A stretch of 64,000 nt of DNA, taken from Dyella acidiphila (GTDB lineage Bacteria; Pseudomonadota; Gammaproteobacteria; Xanthomonadales; Rhodanobacteraceae). The notes below the pieces were generated by a model, which saw nothing but the letters and a program-made list of their open reading frames with translations, was not told where the DNA came from and did no database searches. The stretch covers positions 434,001-498,000 of the forward strand of contig NZ_JACZZA010000002.1 in NCBI RefSeq assembly GCF_014863405.1. Direction: 5' to 3'. Both the position numbers and the translations under genes were made by a program. Shown here piece by piece: positions 3,967 to 10,662 of the stretch (the first letter of the stretch is position 1; the number at the start of each line of letters is the position of its first letter).

Positions 3967-4008
3967 GCGATCTCCGATGCGCCGGCAGCGGAGACGGTCA
4001 GCCTGCCG

Positions 4009-4479
4009 TTACGCGCGGTGGTAAGGATGGCCGGCCAGCAAGGTCGTCGCGCGATAAAGCTGCTCGGCCAGCACCAGCCGCACCAGCATATGCGGCAGGG
4101 TCAGCGGGCCCAATGACCACTTTTGATCGGCGCGCGCCAAAACGTCCGGCGAGTGGCCATCCGGACCGCCGATCAGAAATGCCAGATCGCGCCCGGCCAT
4201 GCGCCACTTCGCCAGTTGTTCGGCCAGTTCTTCGCTGGACCAGGTCTTGCCGCGCCCGTCCAGGGCAATCACCTGGATATCGCGCGGCAGCGCGGCGAGG
4301 ATGGCGGCGCCTTCGTCCTGCATCGCGCGCGCATCGTCGCGGCCTTTGCCGCGCACGCCGGGCTTGAGTTCGATCAATTCGAGGGGCAAATCGTGGGACA
4401 GCCGTTTGCGGTATTCGGCAAACCCTTCTGCAACCCATGCAGGCATGCGTTCGCCGATGGCGATCAGGCGCGCGCGCAT
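4009..4479 (-). CDS. rlmH: 23S rRNA (pseudouridine1915-N3)-methyltransferase RlmH
   Basis: SPOUT-class SAM methyltransferase acting on helix 69 of 23S rRNA in assembled 70S ribosomes. 156 aa, the normal size. The C-terminal knot motifs are intact: ALDGRGKTWSSEELA, FLIGGPDGH, and WSLGPLTLPHMLVRLVLAEQ ending in LLAGHPYHRA. It lies 11 bp downstream of rsfS on the same strand, the conserved rsfS-rlmH pair. Confidence 0.98.
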   Translation of the reverse strand: MRARLIAIGERMPAWVAEGFAEYRKRLSHDLPLELIELKPGVRGKGRDDARAMQDEGAAILAALPRDIQVIALDGRGKTWSSEELAEQLAKWRMAGRDLAFLIGGPDGHSPDVLARADQKWSLGPLTLPHMLVRLVLAEQLYRATTLLAGHPYHRA

Positions 4480-4490
4480 GCCGGATTTGT

Positions 4491-4880
4491 TTACCCGGTC
4501 GCCAGGGCGGCCTCGCCCTCGGCGTCGCGGTCACCCACGGTCCACAGGCGCTCCAGCCCATAGAATTCGCGAATGCGCGGCAGCATGACGTGCACGATCA
4601 CGTCGCCCAGGTCCACCAGCACCCACTCCGCTTCGCGCTCGCCTTCGACACCCAGCGGCATCACGCCCGCCTGTTTGGCGAACTTGACCACTTCGTCGGC
4701 GATGGATTTGACGTGGCGTGCCGAGGTGCCGGAAGCAATCACGAGCAGGTCGGCGATAGAGGTTTTGCCGCGTACATCGATCTCGCGAATGTCTTTGGCT
4801 TTGAGATCTTCAAGTGCGGCGATGACAGTCTTGCGCAGGGCGGCCGTGGTGTCGGCCTTGATATGGCGGGAGGTGGTCAA
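4491..4880 (-). CDS. rsfS: Ribosome silencing factor RsfS
   Basis: Binds uL14 on the 50S subunit and blocks subunit joining when nutrients are scarce. Family signature: [35 protein letters not shown], then [20 protein letters not shown] and [10 protein letters not shown]. The frame is open back to an ATG at 4946, but that would add 22 non-family residues. A TTG at 4880 has AAGAGG nine bases upstream and gives 129 aa, so I prefer TTG; this remains uncertain. Heads the rsfS-rlmH pair and has been separated from nadD by the sigma/NrsF module. Confidence 0.93.
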
Positions 4881-4982
4881 GAGTCGGGGCCTCTTAGGCG
4901 TATCGGCAGCGCGGGACGCGCGGATGGAGTATATCCGCCCTGCCATGAGGCCACGTCAAGCGGAACCTCGCCGGCAGCGGCC

Positions 4983-5633
4983 TCAGGCCCGCGAGAGCAG
5001 CCGTCCGCCCATCAGCACATTGGCGACCACCACGATCGCCACCGCCAGCGCGTGCATCATCAGGTCGGTGGCCGCGGCGTCGAAGTTGTGGCAGATCTCC
5101 AGCAGGCTGGCCGAGGCCGAGGCGCTGGCCAGCCCCACCATCACCGCCGTAACCGTCGGCCGCAGCGGACAGGCGCGCCGCAGCAGCCAGATCAGCAGGC
5201 CGGACAGCGGGATCGAGAAGCTGATGATGAAGATCAGGCAGTCGTTGGCGCCGTGCAAATCCAGCACCGGCATGCCCGGTATATGCGCGCGCAAGCAGCC
5301 CAGGCCGCTGGCGCCGATCCACAGCACCGCGCTGGGTACCGGCAACCACATCCAAAACGGCGAGCGTCCCGGCACCGCCAGCATGAACGCGGCCAGCGCG
5401 GCGGTGACCGCCGTGACCACCGCGCCCAGCGCCGCCCAGCCCAGGTCCGGCGCCGCCACCCAGCGATGCAGCATAGTGCTGGCGCCATAGTGGAAGAACA
5501 GCAGCACCGCGACCGCCGCCACCACCACCAGCCAGCCCAGCGCGCGCCGCCACGGCGGCAGCAGACGCCGCACCGGCGTCAGCTCGGCGCCGAGTGCGTC
5601 GATCAGGGCTTCATGGCGTGGTGCGTCGGACAT
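4983..5633 (-). CDS. nrsF: NrsF family anti-sigma factor (DUF1109)
   Basis: Inner-membrane protein of 216 aa with six hydrophobic segments (about 32-47, 66-87, 94-112, 132-150, 158-178, 190-208), a short cytoplasmic N-terminus and the DUF1109 pattern. It starts 5 bp after the ECF sigma gene stop, so the two are co-transcribed. Members hold a cognate ECF sigma inactive until an envelope stress signal arrives. Cysteines are at 113, 132, 155 and 181; I recall that Caulobacter NrsF depends on conserved cysteines at nearly the same places (131 and 181). Assignment by family and neighbour. Confidence 0.88.
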   Translation of the reverse strand: MSDAPRHEALIDALGAELTPVRRLLPPWRRALGWLVVVAAVAVLLFFHYGASTMLHRWVAAPDLGWAALGAVVTAVTAALAAFMLAVPGRSPFWMWLPVPSAVLWIGASGLGCLRAHIPGMPVLDLHGANDCLIFIISFSIPLSGLLIWLLRRACPLRPTVTAVMVGLASASASASLLEICHNFDAAATDLMMHALAVAIVVVANVLMGGRLLSRA

Positions 5634-5638
5634 CGGGT

Positions 5639-6220
5639 TCAGGATTCTCCGTTCAGTCGATCGCGCAGGCTTTTCAGCGCGCGATGCAAATTCACTTTCA
5701 GCGCGCCGGTATTGCGGCCGGTCTGCACAGCGGCCTCGGCCAGCGAACGTTCCTTCAGGCCCAACTGCTCGACCGCTTCGCGCTGTCCCGGCGGCAAAGT
5801 GTCGATGGCCTTGCGCAGGCGCAGCGCCTGTTGCGCGCGCTCGGCATCGGCGCTGGCATCCTCACGGTCGGCGTGCATTTCATAGGCATGCTCGTCGTGC
5901 ACTTCGCGCCGGTCGCGCCGGCCCTGTCCGCGCAGCACATCGATGGCGCGGCGCGCGGCAATCGCCGCCAGCCACGCATCGTAGGAACGCGACGGATCGA
6001 AGGTATGGCGCACGCGGTGCACAGTGAGCAGGGTTTCCTGCACCACGTCATCGAGCGCATCCACCGCCACGCCCTGGCGCCGTGCCACCGCGCGGATCAG
6101 CGCCACCGAATCCTTCAGCAGGCGCGCATAGGCGCGCTGGTCGCCCGCTTGCGCGGCGCCCATCCACGCTGCCCGCTGCCGGTCAGCCTGTTCGCTGGCA
6201 CTGTTGGATTCGGCTTGCAC
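5639..6220 (-). CDS. sigF: ECF sigma-70 factor, SigF-like partner of NrsF
   Basis: Region 2 is visible as QAGDQRAYARLLKD ... DALDDVVQETLLTVHRVRHTFD, and region 4 as TLPPGQREAVEQLGLKERSLAEAA with helix-turn-helix TGRNTGALKVNLHRALKSLR. The start is unclear: GTG at 6220 (193 aa) is used here. ATGs at 6316 and 6328 stay in frame but add residues without sigma similarity, and ATG 6163 would cut region 2. No good Shine-Dalgarno marks any of them. Followed at once by nrsF. A promoter of the type I recall for Caulobacter SigF faces it, pointing to autoregulation. Confidence 0.88.
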   Translation of the reverse strand: MQAESNSASEQADRQRAAWMGAAQAGDQRAYARLLKDSVALIRAVARRQGVAVDALDDVVQETLLTVHRVRHTFDPSRSYDAWLAAIAARRAIDVLRGQGRRDRREVHDEHAYEMHADREDASADAERAQQALRLRKAIDTLPPGQREAVEQLGLKERSLAEAAVQTGRNTGALKVNLHRALKSLRDRLNGES

Positions 6221-6347
6221 GGACTTGACGTTACCCGGGACCCGGCGTGAAGGCCCGCGTAGTAGTACCCACGCGCCATCAAAGGTCAAGGTATTCGGGC
6301 CCGCAGATATCGACATGACGGCATGCATTTGGACACTTGCCGCTGTA

Positions 6348-6373
6348 TTCGGTCCACAGTAGGCGCGGGTTAC
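6348..6373 (-). promoter_or_regulatory. SigF-type promoter driving sigF-nrsF
   Basis: On the minus strand GTAACC (6373-6368) is followed by exactly 16 bases and CGAA (6351-6348). This equals the motif I recall for Caulobacter SigF. It points at the sigma gene, so transcription would start near 6341. Confidence 0.7.
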
Positions 6374-6397
6374 AACGCGCGCCAGGCCGGCGCAGGC

Positions 6398-6423
6398 GTA
6401 ACCGGCGCATCATGCACACCGAA
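6398..6423 (+). promoter_or_regulatory. SigF-type promoter driving dipZ-msrB
   Basis: GTAACC (6398-6403), 16 bases, CGAA (6420-6423) on the plus strand, 33 bp upstream of the dipZ ATG. It is the mirror-image partner of the promoter at 6348-6373, 24 bp apart, so both divergent operons carry the same element. Confidence 0.72.
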
Positions 6424-6456
6424 TAGCCGACTGAAACGAACTTCACGAGCCGATGC

Positions 6457-8181
6457 ATGCTTCTGCTGATTGCCACATTCCTGGGCGGCCTGATCACCAT
6501 TCTCAGCCCGTGCATCCTGCCGATCCTGCCGTTTGTATTTGCACGGGCGGATCGCCCCTTCATGCGCAACGGCTTGCCGATGCTTGCCGGCATGGCGGTG
6601 ACTTTCACGCTGGTGGCCTCGCTGGCGGCGGTCGCGGGCGGCTGGGCGGTGCATGCCAATCAATACGGGCGCGACCTGGCGCTGGTGGTGCTGACGGTAT
6701 TCGGCATCAGCCTGCTGTCCGCGCGAGTGGCCGACTGGATCAGCCGCCCCTTCGTGAAGCTTGGCAACCGGCTCAGCCAGCGTTCGGATCTGCAGACCGA
6801 TTCACCCTGGTCGGCGGCCGGCCTGGGCATCGCCACCGGACTGCTGTGGGCACCGTGCGCAGGCCCCATTCTCGGCACCATTCTTACCGGCGCAGCCTTG
6901 AACGGCGCCAACGTACAAACGGCGTTGTTGCTGCTCACCTATGCCGGCGGCGCAGCGGTATCGCTGGCGCTGGCGCTGCTGGTGGGTGGACGTGTGTTTA
7001 CGCTGATGAAGCGCTCGCTCGGCGCCGGCGAATGGCTGCGCCGCGGACTGGGCGCGCTGGTGCTGTGCGGTGTCGCGGCGATCGCGCTGGGCATGGATAC
7101 CGGCTGGCTGACGCGCGTTTCGCTGGCTGGCACCAATAGCATCGAGCAACGCCTGCTGGATGTGGCGCGCCCTGCGCCCGCCAAGGCGATGCCGCCGCCC
7201 AAGGCCGGCGCGAGCTTGCCGGTGGAAGGCGAACTGCCGTCACTGGCCGGCGCCACGCAATGGATCAACAGCGCGCCGCTCACGCCCGCATCGCTGCGCG
7301 GCAAGGTGGTGTTGGTGGATTTCTGGACCTATTCCTGCATCAACTGCATTCGCTCGCTACCGTACGTGAATGCATGGGCGCAGAAATACCGCGATCACGG
7401 CCTGGTAGTGATTGGCGTGCATTCGCCGGAATTCGCCTTCGAGAAAGATCCCGCCAACGTGACCAAGGCGGTGCGCGATTTCGGCATCAGCTATCCGGTG
7501 GCGGTCGACAGCGACTACGCGATCTGGCAAGCCTTCAATAACGAATACTGGCCGGCGCATTATTTTATCGATGCCCATGGCCAGATTCGCGGCCATCATT
7601 TCGGCGAAGGCAATTACATCGGCAGCGAAGATCTGATCCGCCGCCTGCTCAGCGACGCCGGCTACAAGGACCTTCCGGGCGGCTACGTGCAACCGAATGC
7701 GGCAGGCGCCGAGATTGCCGACTCCGGCGACGCGCATCGCTCGCCCGAAACCTATGTCGGTTATGCACGCAGCGAGAATTTTGCCGGCGGCCAGATCGCA
7801 CACGATGACAGCTGGAACTACCGCGCGCCCACAACCCTGCTCACCAACCAATGGTCCTTGAACGGACACTGGACCGTGCAAAAGCAGAGCGCGCAACTTA
7901 CCCAGGCCGACGGCAGCGTGATCTATCGCTTCCGCGGGCGCGATCTGCATCTGGTGCTCGGCCCCGGCAAGGACGGCAAGCCAGTGCGCTTTCGCGTCAC
8001 GCTCGACGGCAAGGCGCCCGGCGCAGACCACGGCACCGATATCGATGCCGATGGCAATGGCACCGTCGACGGCCAGCGCCTGTATCAGCTGGTGCGCCAG
8101 GCGCACGGCACCGGCGACCGCGTATTCGACATCACGTTCCTCGATCCGGACGTACACGTCTACGCCTTCACTTTCGGCTGA
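6457..8181 (+). CDS. dipZ: DipZ-type CcdA/thioredoxin fusion, periplasmic reductant supply
   Basis: 574 aa in three parts. Residues 1-230 are a CcdA-like six-helix electron carrier with the redox cysteines C19 (ITILSPCILP) and C134 (LLWAPCAGPI). Residues about 265-400 are a TlpA-like thioredoxin with C294-I-N-C297 in FWTYSCINCIRS. The remainder is the thioredoxin-like C-terminal domain of the DipZ family (NYRAPTTLLTNQWSLNGHW, GADHGTDIDADGNG). The protein would carry electrons from cytoplasmic thioredoxin across the membrane to periplasmic thiols. msrB follows 30 bp downstream, and a SigF-type promoter precedes it. Partner identity (MsrB) is inferred from the operon. Confidence 0.93.
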   Translation: MLLLIATFLGGLITILSPCILPILPFVFARADRPFMRNGLPMLAGMAVTFTLVASLAAVAGGWAVHANQYGRDLALVVLTVFGISLLSARVADWISRPFVKLGNRLSQRSDLQTDSPWSAAGLGIATGLLWAPCAGPILGTILTGAALNGANVQTALLLLTYAGGAAVSLALALLVGGRVFTLMKRSLGAGEWLRRGLGALVLCGVAAIALGMDTGWLTRVSLAGTNSIEQRLLDVARPAPAKAMPPPKAGASLPVEGELPSLAGATQWINSAPLTPASLRGKVVLVDFWTYSCINCIRSLPYVNAWAQKYRDHGLVVIGVHSPEFAFEKDPANVTKAVRDFGISYPVAVDSDYAIWQAFNNEYWPAHYFIDAHGQIRGHHFGEGNYIGSEDLIRRLLSDAGYKDLPGGYVQPNAAGAEIADSGDAHRSPETYVGYARSENFAGGQIAHDDSWNYRAPTTLLTNQWSLNGHWTVQKQSAQLTQADGSVIYRFRGRDLHLVLGPGKDGKPVRFRVTLDGKAPGADHGTDIDADGNGTVDGQRLYQLVRQAHGTGDRVFDITFLDPDVHVYAFTFG

Positions 8182-8211
8182 GCCCCTTCCCCACGGCTCC
8201 AGGAGATTCGC

Positions 8212-8844
8212 ATGAGCTCCACCTACGCCAGCAAGACCATGGACCGGCGCCGTTTCCTGCTCACCGTATTCGGCGGCGGCGCCGCGCTTGCCGTGAGCAG
8301 CGTGACAGCCATCCGCCTGCTCGGGCCGGGCGGCAAGCGCAACGGCGTGATGACCGCCGCGGCACCCGTAGCGACACCCGCGCAGGATCTGCTGCTGGAA
8401 TGTTTTTCCGATGACGACGGCCATCAGCTCGGCCCCTGCCACGTGACCAAATTGGTGCTGACCGATGCGCAATGGCACCTGCGTCTCTCCGATGTCGCCT
8501 TCACCGTGATGCGCCGCGACGGCACCGAAGTGGCTTTCACCGGTGCGCACGAGAAGCCACGCAGCAAAGGCCTGTATCGCTGCGCCGGCTGCAGTACCGC
8601 ACTGTTCGATGCCGCCACGCAATTCGATTCCGGCACCGGCTGGCCCAGCTTCTGGCAGCCAATCGCCAAGCAGAACGTGATCGAGAGTCGCGATTCCAGC
8701 TTCGGCATGATTCGCACCGCCATCAATTGCGCGGGGTGCGACAGCCATCTCGGCCATGTGTTTGATGATGGCCCTGCACCGACGGGTTTGCGTTATTGCA
8801 TGAACTCGGTGGCGATGGAGTTTGTGGCGTTTCGGGTGAGCTGA
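8212..8844 (+). CDS. msrB: Tat-exported peptide-methionine (R)-S-oxide reductase
   Basis: 210 aa. The N-terminus DRRRFLLTVFGGGAALAVSS is a twin-arginine signal (R12-R14), so the enzyme is exported or anchored in the periplasm. The MsrB domain spans about 82-210: zinc pairs C124/C127 and C173/C176, GTGWPSFWQP, and the catalytic Cys196 in LRYCMNSVAM. Two extra cysteines, C64 and C76, lie in the linker between signal and domain. Reduces Met-R-sulfoxide in proteins using electrons from a thioredoxin, here probably DipZ. RBS AGGAG at 8201-8205. Most MsrB proteins are cytoplasmic, so the Tat signal is the odd feature. Confidence 0.95.
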   Translation: MSSTYASKTMDRRRFLLTVFGGGAALAVSSVTAIRLLGPGGKRNGVMTAAAPVATPAQDLLLECFSDDDGHQLGPCHVTKLVLTDAQWHLRLSDVAFTVMRRDGTEVAFTGAHEKPRSKGLYRCAGCSTALFDAATQFDSGTGWPSFWQPIAKQNVIESRDSSFGMIRTAINCAGCDSHLGHVFDDGPAPTGLRYCMNSVAMEFVAFRVS

Positions 8845-8864
8845 TCGCCACACCGTGATTGATG

Positions 8865-8960
8865 CGTAGGTTGGGTTGCCCCGGGCTTGATCCGGGGTAA
8901 CCCAACGATGTCGCTATCGAAGATAAATCGTTGGGTTACGCTGCGCTAACCCAACCTACG
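8865..8960. repeat. REP family 1 copy a (type B arm plus type A arm)
   Basis: Composite palindrome between msrB and nadD. The left hairpin has a GCCCCGGGCTTGATCCGGGGT core, the right hairpin the ACGCTGCGCT core. Both are bounded by CGTAGGTTGGGTT and AACCCAACCTACG. Confidence 0.9.
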
Positions 8961-8973
8961 GATGGGTGTCGGG

Positions 8974-9618
8974 TCAGTGGCCGAAGGAATCGCGGTAGGG
9001 GGCCAGCAAGGTGGTATCGTCAAACAGGCCGGCCGGCAGCAGGTAACGCGGATCGCGTCCGGCGGCAAGCAATTCGCGGATGCGCGTCGCGGAAACTTCC
9101 AGCGGCGTCACCACCAGTTCGATCACGCGGCCGGCCGGCTGCGCGCGAATCACGTTGAGATCTTCGGTGCGCCGCGGCGCGACCGCGCGCTCCAGTTCCA
9201 CCGGCATGCAGGCATCGATGCCGGGGCGGTTGATCATGCCGATATGCGTAACCTCGAACAGATCGCGCCAGCGATGCCAGCTGCGCAAGCCGGCAAAGGC
9301 ATCGGCACCGAGCAGCAGCACCAGCGGGCGATCGCCGAATTCATTGCGCAGTTCGTGCAGGGTATCGATGGTGTAGGAGGGGCCGCTGCGATCGAGTTCG
9401 CGCGTATCCAGGCTGAGTCGCGACTGTCCGCGCAGCGCAGCGCGCAGCATCGCCACGCGCTGGGCCGCCGTAGCGGTGGGCGACGAGCGATGCGGCGGCA
9501 CACTGGCCGGCATCAGGCGCACTTCGGCGTCGAGCAGCTCGGCCGCTTCCCAGGCCACGCTGAGGTGGCCGATATGGATCGGATCGAACGTGCCGCCAAA
9601 GATCGCGAGCGGTTTCAT
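8974..9618 (-). CDS. nadD: Nicotinate-nucleotide adenylyltransferase
   Basis: Converts nicotinate mononucleotide plus ATP to deamido-NAD in NAD biosynthesis. 214 aa. Nucleotidyltransferase HxGH motif in GGTFDPIHIGHLS near residue 8, and C-terminal VSATRIRELLAAGRDPRYLLP, equivalent to the family ISSTxxR motif. Last gene of leuS-lptE-holA-nadD. In many genomes rsfS follows directly; here the sigF/dipZ module intervenes. Confidence 0.98.
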   Translation of the reverse strand: MKPLAIFGGTFDPIHIGHLSVAWEAAELLDAEVRLMPASVPPHRSSPTATAAQRVAMLRAALRGQSRLSLDTRELDRSGPSYTIDTLHELRNEFGDRPLVLLLGADAFAGLRSWHRWRDLFEVTHIGMINRPGIDACMPVELERAVAPRRTEDLNVIRAQPAGRVIELVVTPLEVSATRIRELLAAGRDPRYLLPAGLFDDTTLLAPYRDSFGH

Positions 9619-9651
9619 GCAAAGCTTCCTACTGGCCGTGGCGGCCGTTGG

Positions 9652-10662
9652 TCACGCCAGCGCCTGCGCGGCGCGCGGTTCGGCGATGGCGGCGATCAGA
9701 CGCTGGGCTTGCAGCCATGCATCGCCGGCCTCGCGGCCCTTGGCGATGCGGTCGATGCGCGCGGCGCGGGCCAGGCAGTGCATCCAGTGTTCGCGCGGCG
9801 CGCGGCGCAGTGCCTTGCGGAACAACTGCTCGCGCGCCGGCCACAGGCGTTCGGCGCGCGCCTGCGCGGCGAAATCCTGCGCGTTGGCCAGGCGCAGGGC
9901 GAGCTGCAACTGATTCACCAGCCAGCCCATCAAGGCAATGAGTTCCTCACCTTCGGCGTGCAGGCCTTCGAGGATGCGCAGCGCGCGCGCGCCATCGCCG
10001 CCGAGCGCCGCGTCGGTGAGCTTGAAGGCGTCGTAGCGTGCGCTGTCGGCCACCAGGTGTTCCATTTCGGCGGCATCGATCTTGCCCTGCCCGTGCAATA
10101 CCGCCAGCTTGTCGATCTCTTGCGCCGCGGCGAGTAGGTTGCCCTCCACGCGTTCGGCCAGCAAGGCGACCGCTTCGGGCACAGCAGCCAGTCCGCGCGA
10201 GGCCAGGCGCGCGCCGATCCACGCCTGCCATTCGTTTGGGCGCGGCGCATTGAACACCACCATCGAACCGGCGCCATCCACCTGCTTGGTCCACGCGCCT
10301 TCGTGCTTGTTGCTCCACGCCACCGCGCTGATCAACAGCGTGACATCGGGCGGCGGATTGCCGCAGAACTCGACGATGGCCTTGGCGCCCTCGGTACCGG
10401 GGCGGCCGGTGGGAAGACGCAGGTCGAGCAGCCGGCGCGTGGCGAACAGCGACATGCCGGCCGCGGAGCGCGCCAGTTCGTCCCAGTCGAAATGCGCGCC
10501 GACATCCAGCACGGTGCGCTCGCTGTAGCCCAGCGTGCGCGCCTGCGCGCGCAGGGCATCGGCCGCTTCCAGCACCAGCAGTTCCTCGCCGGCGAGCAGG
10601 TACACGGGGCTCAGGGCATTCGCCGCCAGAGCCTTCTGCCACTGCGCGTGATTAAGCGGCAT
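9652..10662 (-). CDS. holA: DNA polymerase III delta subunit
   Basis: Clamp-loader subunit that opens the beta ring. 336 aa, collinear with HolA: PVYLLAGEELLVLEAADALR, the LFATRRLLDLRLPTG strand, and the C-terminal helical collar (LEGLHAEGEELIALMGWLVNQLQLALRLANAQ). 5 bp after lptE and 33 bp before nadD, in a single minus-strand operon. Confidence 0.97.
   Translation of the reverse strand: MPLNHAQWQKALAANALSPVYLLAGEELLVLEAADALRAQARTLGYSERTVLDVGAHFDWDELARSAAGMSLFATRRLLDLRLPTGRPGTEGAKAIVEFCGNPPPDVTLLISAVAWSNKHEGAWTKQVDGAGSMVVFNAPRPNEWQAWIGARLASRGLAAVPEAVALLAERVEGNLLAAAQEIDKLAVLHGQGKIDAAEMEHLVADSARYDAFKLTDAALGGDGARALRILEGLHAEGEELIALMGWLVNQLQLALRLANAQDFAAQARAERLWPAREQLFRKALRRAPREHWMHCLARAARIDRIAKGREAGDAWLQAQRLIAAIAEPRAAQALA

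Follow-up and report, generated by a model that had tools for sequence, protein, structure and literature searches.

The window analysed here, a stretch of 64,000 nucleotides from Dyella acidiphila (contig NZ_JACZZA010000002.1, positions 434,001 to 498,000), contains a compact module in which the genes for an extracytoplasmic function (ECF) sigma factor and its NrsF membrane anti-sigma factor are divergent from dipZ and msrB, which encode a thiol-reductant exporter and a methionine-R-sulfoxide reductase (Table 1). A preliminary description, made from the sequence alone, had proposed these identities and this order, and both were confirmed, with Pfam and NCBIfam in agreement with the names of all four genes. 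NrsF, whose gene directly follows that of the sigma factor, matched PF06532 with 75.3 bits (cut-off 26.8) and is the single NrsF of the genome (G000, 5.07 Mb in 28 contigs). The sigma factor matched Sigma70_r2 (41.8 bits) and r4_2 (39.8 bits), and its conservation with relatives starts near an in-frame ATG at 6163, inside the longest open reading frame (ORF). DipZ matched DsbD_TM (30.3 bits), Redoxin (45.1 bits) and Thioredoxin_10 (166.4 bits), while MsrB matched SelR (152.7 bits) and TIGR00357 (161.9 bits).

Table 1. Genes and predicted promoter sites of the sigma-nrsF/dipZ-msrB module, with positions counted from the first base of the window.
Feature	Position	Strand	Remarks
nrsF	4983-5633	-	Membrane anti-sigma factor, 216 aa, PF06532/DUF1109
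ECF sigma gene	5639-6328	-	Sigma70_r2 and Sigma70_r4_2 Pfam matches; longest ORF 229 aa
Second ECF16-like site upstream of sigma	6209-6234	-	GTAACG-N16-CGAA
Predicted ECF16 promoter of sigma-nrsF	6348-6373	-	GTAACC-N16-CGAA; exact on the sigma side in 79/79 loci
Predicted ECF16 promoter of dipZ-msrB	6398-6423	+	GTAACC-N16-CGAA; first base 59 bp upstream of dipZ ATG
dipZ	6457-8181	+	Thiol-reductant exporter, 574 aa; DsbD_TM, thioredoxin-like domain, Thioredoxin_10
msrB	8212-8844	+	Methionine-R-sulfoxide reductase; twin-arginine signal at residues 12-16

The module belongs to a branch that is widespread in the Rhodanobacteraceae, most of whose members live in soil or with plants. NrsF was found in 138 of 233 Rhodanobacteraceae genomes and in 18 of the 26 genera, and its members fell by score into two types, that of the window (about 60-81 bits) and a classical type (about 205-248 bits), with one intermediate at 98 bits (L096). 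The preliminary description had suggested a survey of such DUF1109 loci for adjacent dipZ-msrB. We compared 80 window-type loci, namely the window and 79 relatives from 14 genera, out of about 117 listed window-type matches, the relatives having been picked before their neighbours were seen; L096 and 19 classical-type stretches (L103-L121) served for comparison. Among the best 80 of 169 NrsF relatives were isolates of Dyella, Rhodanobacter, Frateuria and Fulvimonas together with metagenome bins under broader labels. In 72 of the 80 window-type loci dipZ is divergent from sigma and in six msrB stands there alone; of the remaining two, L049 has its dipZ-msrB pair on another contig (L138, genome G050) and L054 is cut by a contig end. 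Six of the 72 (L046, L047, L048, L050, L051 and L053) carry an extra ORF between sigma and dipZ, a secreted protein resembling an outer-membrane barrel by eye, so that 1.1-2.3 kb in all separates the two genes. In none of the 19 classical-type stretches was there a match to DipZ or MsrB. Beyond the Rhodanobacteraceae, the window-type NrsF alignment (E <= 1e-6) picked up 3 of 368 further genomes from the class, and the stretches fetched around those three loci held no DipZ or MsrB relative. The gene arrangement is not due to chance.

The evidence that bears most directly on regulation lies between the two divergent gene pairs. Published promoters of this sigma factor group read GTAACC-N16-CGAA for Caulobacter SigF (PMC3511200), (T/C)GTAAC-N17-CGAA for the Brucella type of ECF16 (PMC8315932) and tGTAACc-N16-CGAA for Bradyrhizobium EcfF (PMC3420878). 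The corresponding pattern GTAACS-N15-17-CGAA occurs four times in the window (0.20 expected): two copies precede sigma, one precedes dipZ and one lies in a repeat. An exact GTAAC-N17-CGAA is present on the sigma side of every locus that could be judged (all except L054), and on the dipZ/msrB side it is exact in 74 of 78, the other four having both boxes with a 16-base spacer; mean pairwise identity is 0.38 and 0.41 within the two spacers and 0.31-0.41 in the flanks. The dipZ site stays 58-59 bp before the ATG in the six loci with an inserted ORF, and the relocated pair of G050 retains its site 62 bp before dipZ. No exact site was found in the 2.5 kb searched before each of 16 unlinked DipZ genes (nine second copies and seven from genomes without this NrsF). 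As a background, the remaining 968 kb of the stretches, without the intergenic regions, contained 27 exact sites, and many of these belong to the Met-rich genes after nrsF described below. The second sigma-side site was seen in just three examined loci, the window, L030 and L036. Because conserved ECF16 promoters face both genes, the sigma factor very likely controls dipZ-msrB and itself, as the preliminary description had supposed for the former.

The fourth match in the window (8897-8921) was rejected as a site because it lies inside a repeated palindromic element. This 26-base element, GTTGGGTTACGCTGCGCTAACCCAAC, has nine exact copies in the window against none expected, one at 8862-8963 and eight more between 21851 and 50060; several stand head to head, and by look the element resembles repetitive extragenic palindromic sequences.

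Further predicted targets lie elsewhere in the genome. Two back-to-back ECF16 sites separate a divergent pair of genes (L143:6272-7584; G000:C11, about 40.3-41.6 kb) for a CcdA-like protein (DsbD_TM, 55 bits) and a secreted thioredoxin (CPTC; Thioredoxin, 45.7 bits), and all 17 close relatives of this pair keep the CcdA-side site, while 13 of them keep the one that faces the thioredoxin gene. Of 25 more distant homologues listed, 13 were examined; in these the thioredoxin gene precedes ccdA in one direction, and because an exact site stands 66-93 bp before the thioredoxin gene in five of the 13 we rejected the distant homologues as a clean negative control. A gene for a catalase-family peroxidase (L003:342-1424; G000:C10:52220-53302; PF00199, 91 bits) with a hydrophobic N-terminal segment is preceded by an ECF16 site in 14 of 15 genus orthologues, with one mismatch in the fifteenth, and its second copy has none. 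The preliminary description had called the module self-contained, which these conserved sites before ccdA/thioredoxin and peroxidase genes contradict. A DUF308-like gene (L002) was rejected as a target despite a well-placed site in the window genome.

In DipZ, Cys19 and Cys134 of the DsbD_TM part and the CxxC pair Cys294/Cys297 of the thioredoxin-like domain are conserved in 72 of 72 sequences. MsrB has RRRFL at residues 12-16, and all 78 MsrB sequences, from 14 genera, have the pattern RRx[FL][LVI] and after it a hydrophobic stretch, which points to export by the twin-arginine translocation (Tat) pathway; the second of the two MsrB proteins of the window genome lacks such an N-terminal extension. 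The Tat motif and the CxxC site noted in the preliminary description are thus both there and both conserved. The module accordingly appears to hold a Tat-motif MsrB together with a membrane thiol transporter that shares its promoter and has a predicted outer thioredoxin domain. All 78 MsrB sequences also contain Cys124, Cys127, Cys173 and Cys176, which we take to be zinc ligands, and Cys196, presumably the catalytic residue. Every one of them has Thr (SGTGWPSF) in place of the Cys that many MsrB proteins have in SGCGWPSF, which by its position in E. coli MsrB we take to be the resolving Cys of two-Cys MsrB enzymes. A further pair in the N-terminal extension, Cys64/Cys76, comes as a unit (both residues in 53 sequences, neither in 24, a single one in 1). 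Human MsrB3 likewise has no Cys at the proximal position and relies instead on a pair near its N-terminus (PMC7475093).

The sigma factor is 33-36% identical to the classical sigma factors of the family and 47-53% to plasmid-borne ones that are followed by NrsF, and the ECF16 placement of the window system is one by NrsF partner and promoter type. For NrsF, Cys132 and Cys181, which had been pointed out before, are both present in the window protein, as are Cys113 and Cys155, which had gone unmentioned. Across the 80 loci Cys113 and Cys132 are invariant, Cys181 is found in 69 and Cys155 in 65. Cys132 aligns with the first Cys of classical NrsF (80/80 window-type and 9/9 classical-side sequences), and Cys113, invariant in the window-type branch, is a Cys in one of nine classical-side sequences. 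An AlphaFold2 model built with 38 sequences (mean predicted local distance difference test score 84.4) has six long helices, and if the N-terminus is inside, Cys113, Cys132 and Cys181 would lie at outer helix ends and Cys155 inside. A search of solved structures gave none resembling this fold (109 matches at E up to 10, best 1.2). Two members of the window's genus (L120 in G078 and L121 in G073) have, in addition to the window type, three copies of classical NrsF on a single contig, and therefore cross-talk via the shared promoter type is possible there.

A small Met-rich protein accompanies the module in part of the branch. In 22 of the 80 loci, from nine genera, a small Met-rich ORF of the secreted repeat type follows nrsF with an exact site between them, typically 73-84 bp before the likely ATG (L037, L041, L043, L050, L052, L054-L057, L071, L072, L076, L077, L092-L095, L098, L099, L101 and others); six more loci have such an ORF further on and without the site, and two have the site without the ORF, in one case ahead of a DUF2282 protein. 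Four of these proteins were compared with the MXKDX model TIGR02953, of which two scored above its cut-off, one scored below and one gave no match. By the filter applied, neither the window nor any of its 14 examined genus mates has a Met-rich ORF in the 900 bp that follow nrsF, and the window genome encodes no MXKDX protein above the TIGR02953 cut-off. The earlier statement that no Met-rich scavenger stands beside the sigma factor thus holds for the window and its genus mates and fails for the branch as a whole. As for MsrP, the window genome gave no full-length domain match but a partial one to PF00174 in a short ORF (positions 69-164, 37.1 bits), no MsrP-specific model having been used. In L038 (identified by Pfam) and L040 (by eye) the place of the Met-rich gene after nrsF is taken by one for a small secreted protein of the DUF2282 type, again with an ECF16 site.

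In the window the module is flanked by rsfS and nadD (3998-10662). The pairs rsfS-rlmH and nadD-holA usually stand together, and here the module separates the one pair from the other. Both flanks are kept in 47 of the 80 stretches, and in others the module is sited elsewhere, for example in all five examined stretches of one genus (g2) and all 17 of another (g22).

How does this system relate to those already described? The closest precedent is EcfF/OsrA of Bradyrhizobium, in which the sigma factor controls three methionine sulfoxide reductases, a DsbD-core protein and an anchored thioredoxin, and OsrA requires Cys129 and Cys179 (PMC3420878). Common to the two systems are a DUF1109 anti-sigma factor (with two important cysteines in Bradyrhizobium), a sigma factor with autoregulation (predicted for the window), a GTAAC-type promoter, methionine sulfoxide reductases (one of them predicted to be periplasmic in Bradyrhizobium), a membrane protein with a DsbD core and a periplasmic thioredoxin with a membrane anchor, and the authors of that work speculated in 2012 that the DsbD-core protein and the thioredoxin deliver electrons to the reductase (PMC3420878). 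Unlike in the window system, the Bradyrhizobium targets are scattered over the genome and the promoter spacing is given there as shorter (N14-15); the passages of that paper available to us describe no DipZ that carries a thioredoxin-like domain of its own and no operon of dipZ and msrB that diverges from the sigma gene. BcrS/AbcS-BcrXQP of Brucella (PMC8315932) and SigF/NrsF-MrpX-YedY1 of Azospira (reviewed in PMC5748585) each join a Met-rich protein to a methionine sulfoxide reductase and are linked to hypochlorous acid (HOCl). They share with the window system the ECF16 sigma factor with NrsF/DUF1109, the promoter type, an envelope methionine sulfoxide reductase and, in part of the branch, the Met-rich MXKDX protein, but they employ the molybdenum enzyme MsrP, together with MsrQ, as the reductase, whereas here it is MsrB with a thiol transporter.

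Caulobacter SigF/NrsF, which responds to chromium and cadmium and targets DUF2282-DUF692-DUF2063-DoxX clusters and YedY, has in common with the window system the NrsF family (with Cys131/Cys181 in Caulobacter), the GTAACC-N16-CGAA promoter and autoregulation, which is predicted for the window (PMC3511200). Within the Rhodanobacteraceae, clusters of the Caulobacter kind sit in the separate classical branch, as judged from the neighbourhood of L103 (DUF2282, DUF692-type, DUF2063 and DoxX), the one classical stretch of 19 that was domain-scanned. In Haemophilus, RpoE2/HrsE is an HOCl-linked ECF sigma factor that controls periplasmic MsrAB from an operon also encoding thioredoxin and CcdA (PMC7907618, PMC9404787); a sigma-controlled periplasmic Msr with thioredoxin and a CcdA-type transporter is thus shared, but the sigma factor belongs to ECF group 13 and is paired with a small cytoplasmic anti-sigma factor that has a zinc motif, the reductase is an MsrA-MsrB fusion and, as far as these sources describe the system, there is no NrsF.

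Two clusters of Methylobacterium, on records of a plasmid or second replicon (L302 and L303), contain an MXKDX ORF, sigma, NrsF, MsrB and MsrP/MsrQ-like genes, with GTAAC-N17-CGAA sites before the MXKDX and msrB genes; their sigma factors are 52-53% and their NrsF proteins 50-53% identical to those of the window. L302, from Methylobacterium bullatum, is an unannotated record most of whose ORFs we named by eye, and it shows a DsbD-like ORF, a twin-arginine-like MsrB with SGTGWPSF and two NrsF genes around the cluster. The clusters differ from the window in that the genes run in one direction, MsrP/MsrQ-like genes are also present and the thiol exporter is of the long DsbD type. On a Pantoea plasmid, sigma and NrsF have as neighbours a peroxiredoxin and a protein that joins DsbD_TM to thioredoxin. 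Together with the published cases, the Methylobacterium and Pantoea examples lead us to conclude that ECF16 systems mix a common set of envelope-redox parts. In the literature, with subscription sources mostly outside our coverage, we found no report joining a sigma factor, DipZ and MsrB and none on an ECF sigma factor and methionine sulfoxide reductase in Rhodanobacter; a search for methionine sulfoxide reductase, DipZ and periplasm yielded nothing related, as judged by the listing. We judge the family-wide regulon to be real and the compact arrangement to be new, but the idea is partly in print already for Bradyrhizobium EcfF/OsrA. The earlier view that the sigma factor here controls a different repair pair accordingly stands in so far as MsrB-DipZ takes the place of MsrP, and is less novel than it seemed, as the Bradyrhizobium and Methylobacterium systems combine similar parts.

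Taken together, the observations make it likely, in our judgement, that the module represents a conserved ECF16 (SigF/NrsF) branch, typical of the Rhodanobacteraceae, that switches on a regulon of thiol-driven envelope defence and repair. We infer that NrsF would hold the sigma factor at the inner membrane and would free it upon an oxidising signal from the outer side, which Cys113, Cys132 and often Cys181 probably detect, as studied relatives suggest. The freed sigma factor would transcribe its own operon and dipZ-msrB from the back-to-back GTAAC-N17-CGAA promoters, a step for which the sequence evidence is strong. DipZ may then move electrons from the cytoplasm through the membrane as far as its thioredoxin-like domain on the outer side, and this domain would re-reduce the presumably Tat-exported MsrB, and MsrB in turn would mend methionine-R-sulfoxide in envelope proteins. 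In the window's genus, conserved sites suggest that the sigma factor also drives the secreted thioredoxin and CcdA-like transporter, which would offer those electrons another path, as well as the apparently membrane-anchored peroxidase, and in many relatives it would drive the small secreted Met-rich protein as a scavenger recycled by MsrB.

Several observations weigh against this reading. The motif is not enriched in the genome as a whole (11 occurrences against 9 for the reversed control, and 23 against 38), and the own-genome contexts that were viewed comprise 11 GTAACC sites and the site at 6209-6234, of 23 in all; the case for the promoters is carried by position and conservation, not by the number of sites. 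The thioredoxin side is without an exact site in four of the 17 close relatives, as are eight of the 13 distant thioredoxin-ccdA operons. The site of the DUF308-like gene is present in one of nine genus homologues, the window genome's own, which shows that a lone site can deceive. Cys181 is absent from 11 of 80 NrsF proteins and lies one alignment column off the second classical Cys. Finally, six loci retain msrB without adjacent dipZ, and another reductant must therefore serve there.

This last point raises the question of whether DipZ is the reductant of MsrB at all. The sigma factor could control dipZ-msrB while the two proteins work apart, DipZ acting on other thiols of the envelope and MsrB drawing its reducing power from the CcdA-like protein and the secreted thioredoxin or from a DsbD encoded elsewhere. 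Such a division of labour would accommodate the six loci in which msrB is kept under the promoter, the second thiol route with the same promoter type in the window genome and the Haemophilus msrAB operon with its thioredoxin and CcdA (PMC9404787). We nevertheless think it unlikely, as dipZ and msrB adjoin under one promoter in 72 of the 80 loci, remain joined on the other contig of G050 and occur with msrB immediately upstream of dipZ in two genomes without this NrsF (L122, L123). Somewhat easier to entertain, yet still improbable, is that the trigger is a thiol-reactive metal (chromate, cadmium or copper) rather than an oxidant, with methionine repair secondary. The metal response of Caulobacter SigF/NrsF (PMC3511200) speaks for it, as does the Caulobacter-like company of DUF2282, DUF692-type, DUF2063 and DoxX genes at classical ECF16 loci of the family, but those classical loci (L103-L121) are the ones without DipZ or MsrB, the conserved targets of the window branch are methionine repair, thiol supply and a catalase-family peroxidase, and the published MXKDX/Msr-type ECF16 systems, so far as their sources describe them, respond to HOCl or H2O2 (PMC8315932, PMC3420878).

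Two further alternatives strike us as very remote. That dipZ-msrB stands beside sigma-nrsF by descent and is not its target would fit the genome-wide motif count, which does not exceed the control, but hardly the conservation of the sites in 78 loci against diverged spacers, nor the want of a site at 16 of 16 unlinked DipZ genes while the relocated pair keeps one. A cytoplasmic MsrB with a fortuitous twin-arginine motif is scarcely credible given that motif and hydrophobic stretch recur throughout the 14 genera and that the genome's other MsrB has no such extension.

Beyond the regulon itself, a fuller joint reading can be put forward, tentatively and with rather more doubt than confidence, as a thiol-powered cycle of hypochlorite scavenging. 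The Met-rich protein or, in its absence, envelope methionines would soak up the oxidant and an exported MsrB without the usual resolving Cys would recycle them, MsrP having been replaced by a non-homologous reductase with another electron source, and NrsF would sense via Cys113-Cys132 and not via the 131-181 pair of Caulobacter. As parts of the same reading, MsrB might be re-reduced by the DipZ domain either directly or via a Cys64/Cys76 relay, as in human MsrB3, CcdA and the secreted thioredoxin might act as a back-up and the peroxidase as a first line, and the switch might be ancestral to the Rhodanobacteraceae.

If a thiol-driven ECF16 regulon of this kind does operate, a whole environmental family would run its envelope methionine repair off the cytoplasmic thioredoxin pool via an exporter and a reductase encoded in one operon, and a membrane sigma switch known elsewhere for its molybdenum-enzyme version would here be paired with a thiol route. 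The electron route speculated upon for Bradyrhizobium in 2012 would become a compact, testable operon, the MsrB of these bacteria would provide a natural test of how the enzyme acts without its usual resolving cysteine, and the signal perceived by NrsF could be sought with the help of a defined target set.

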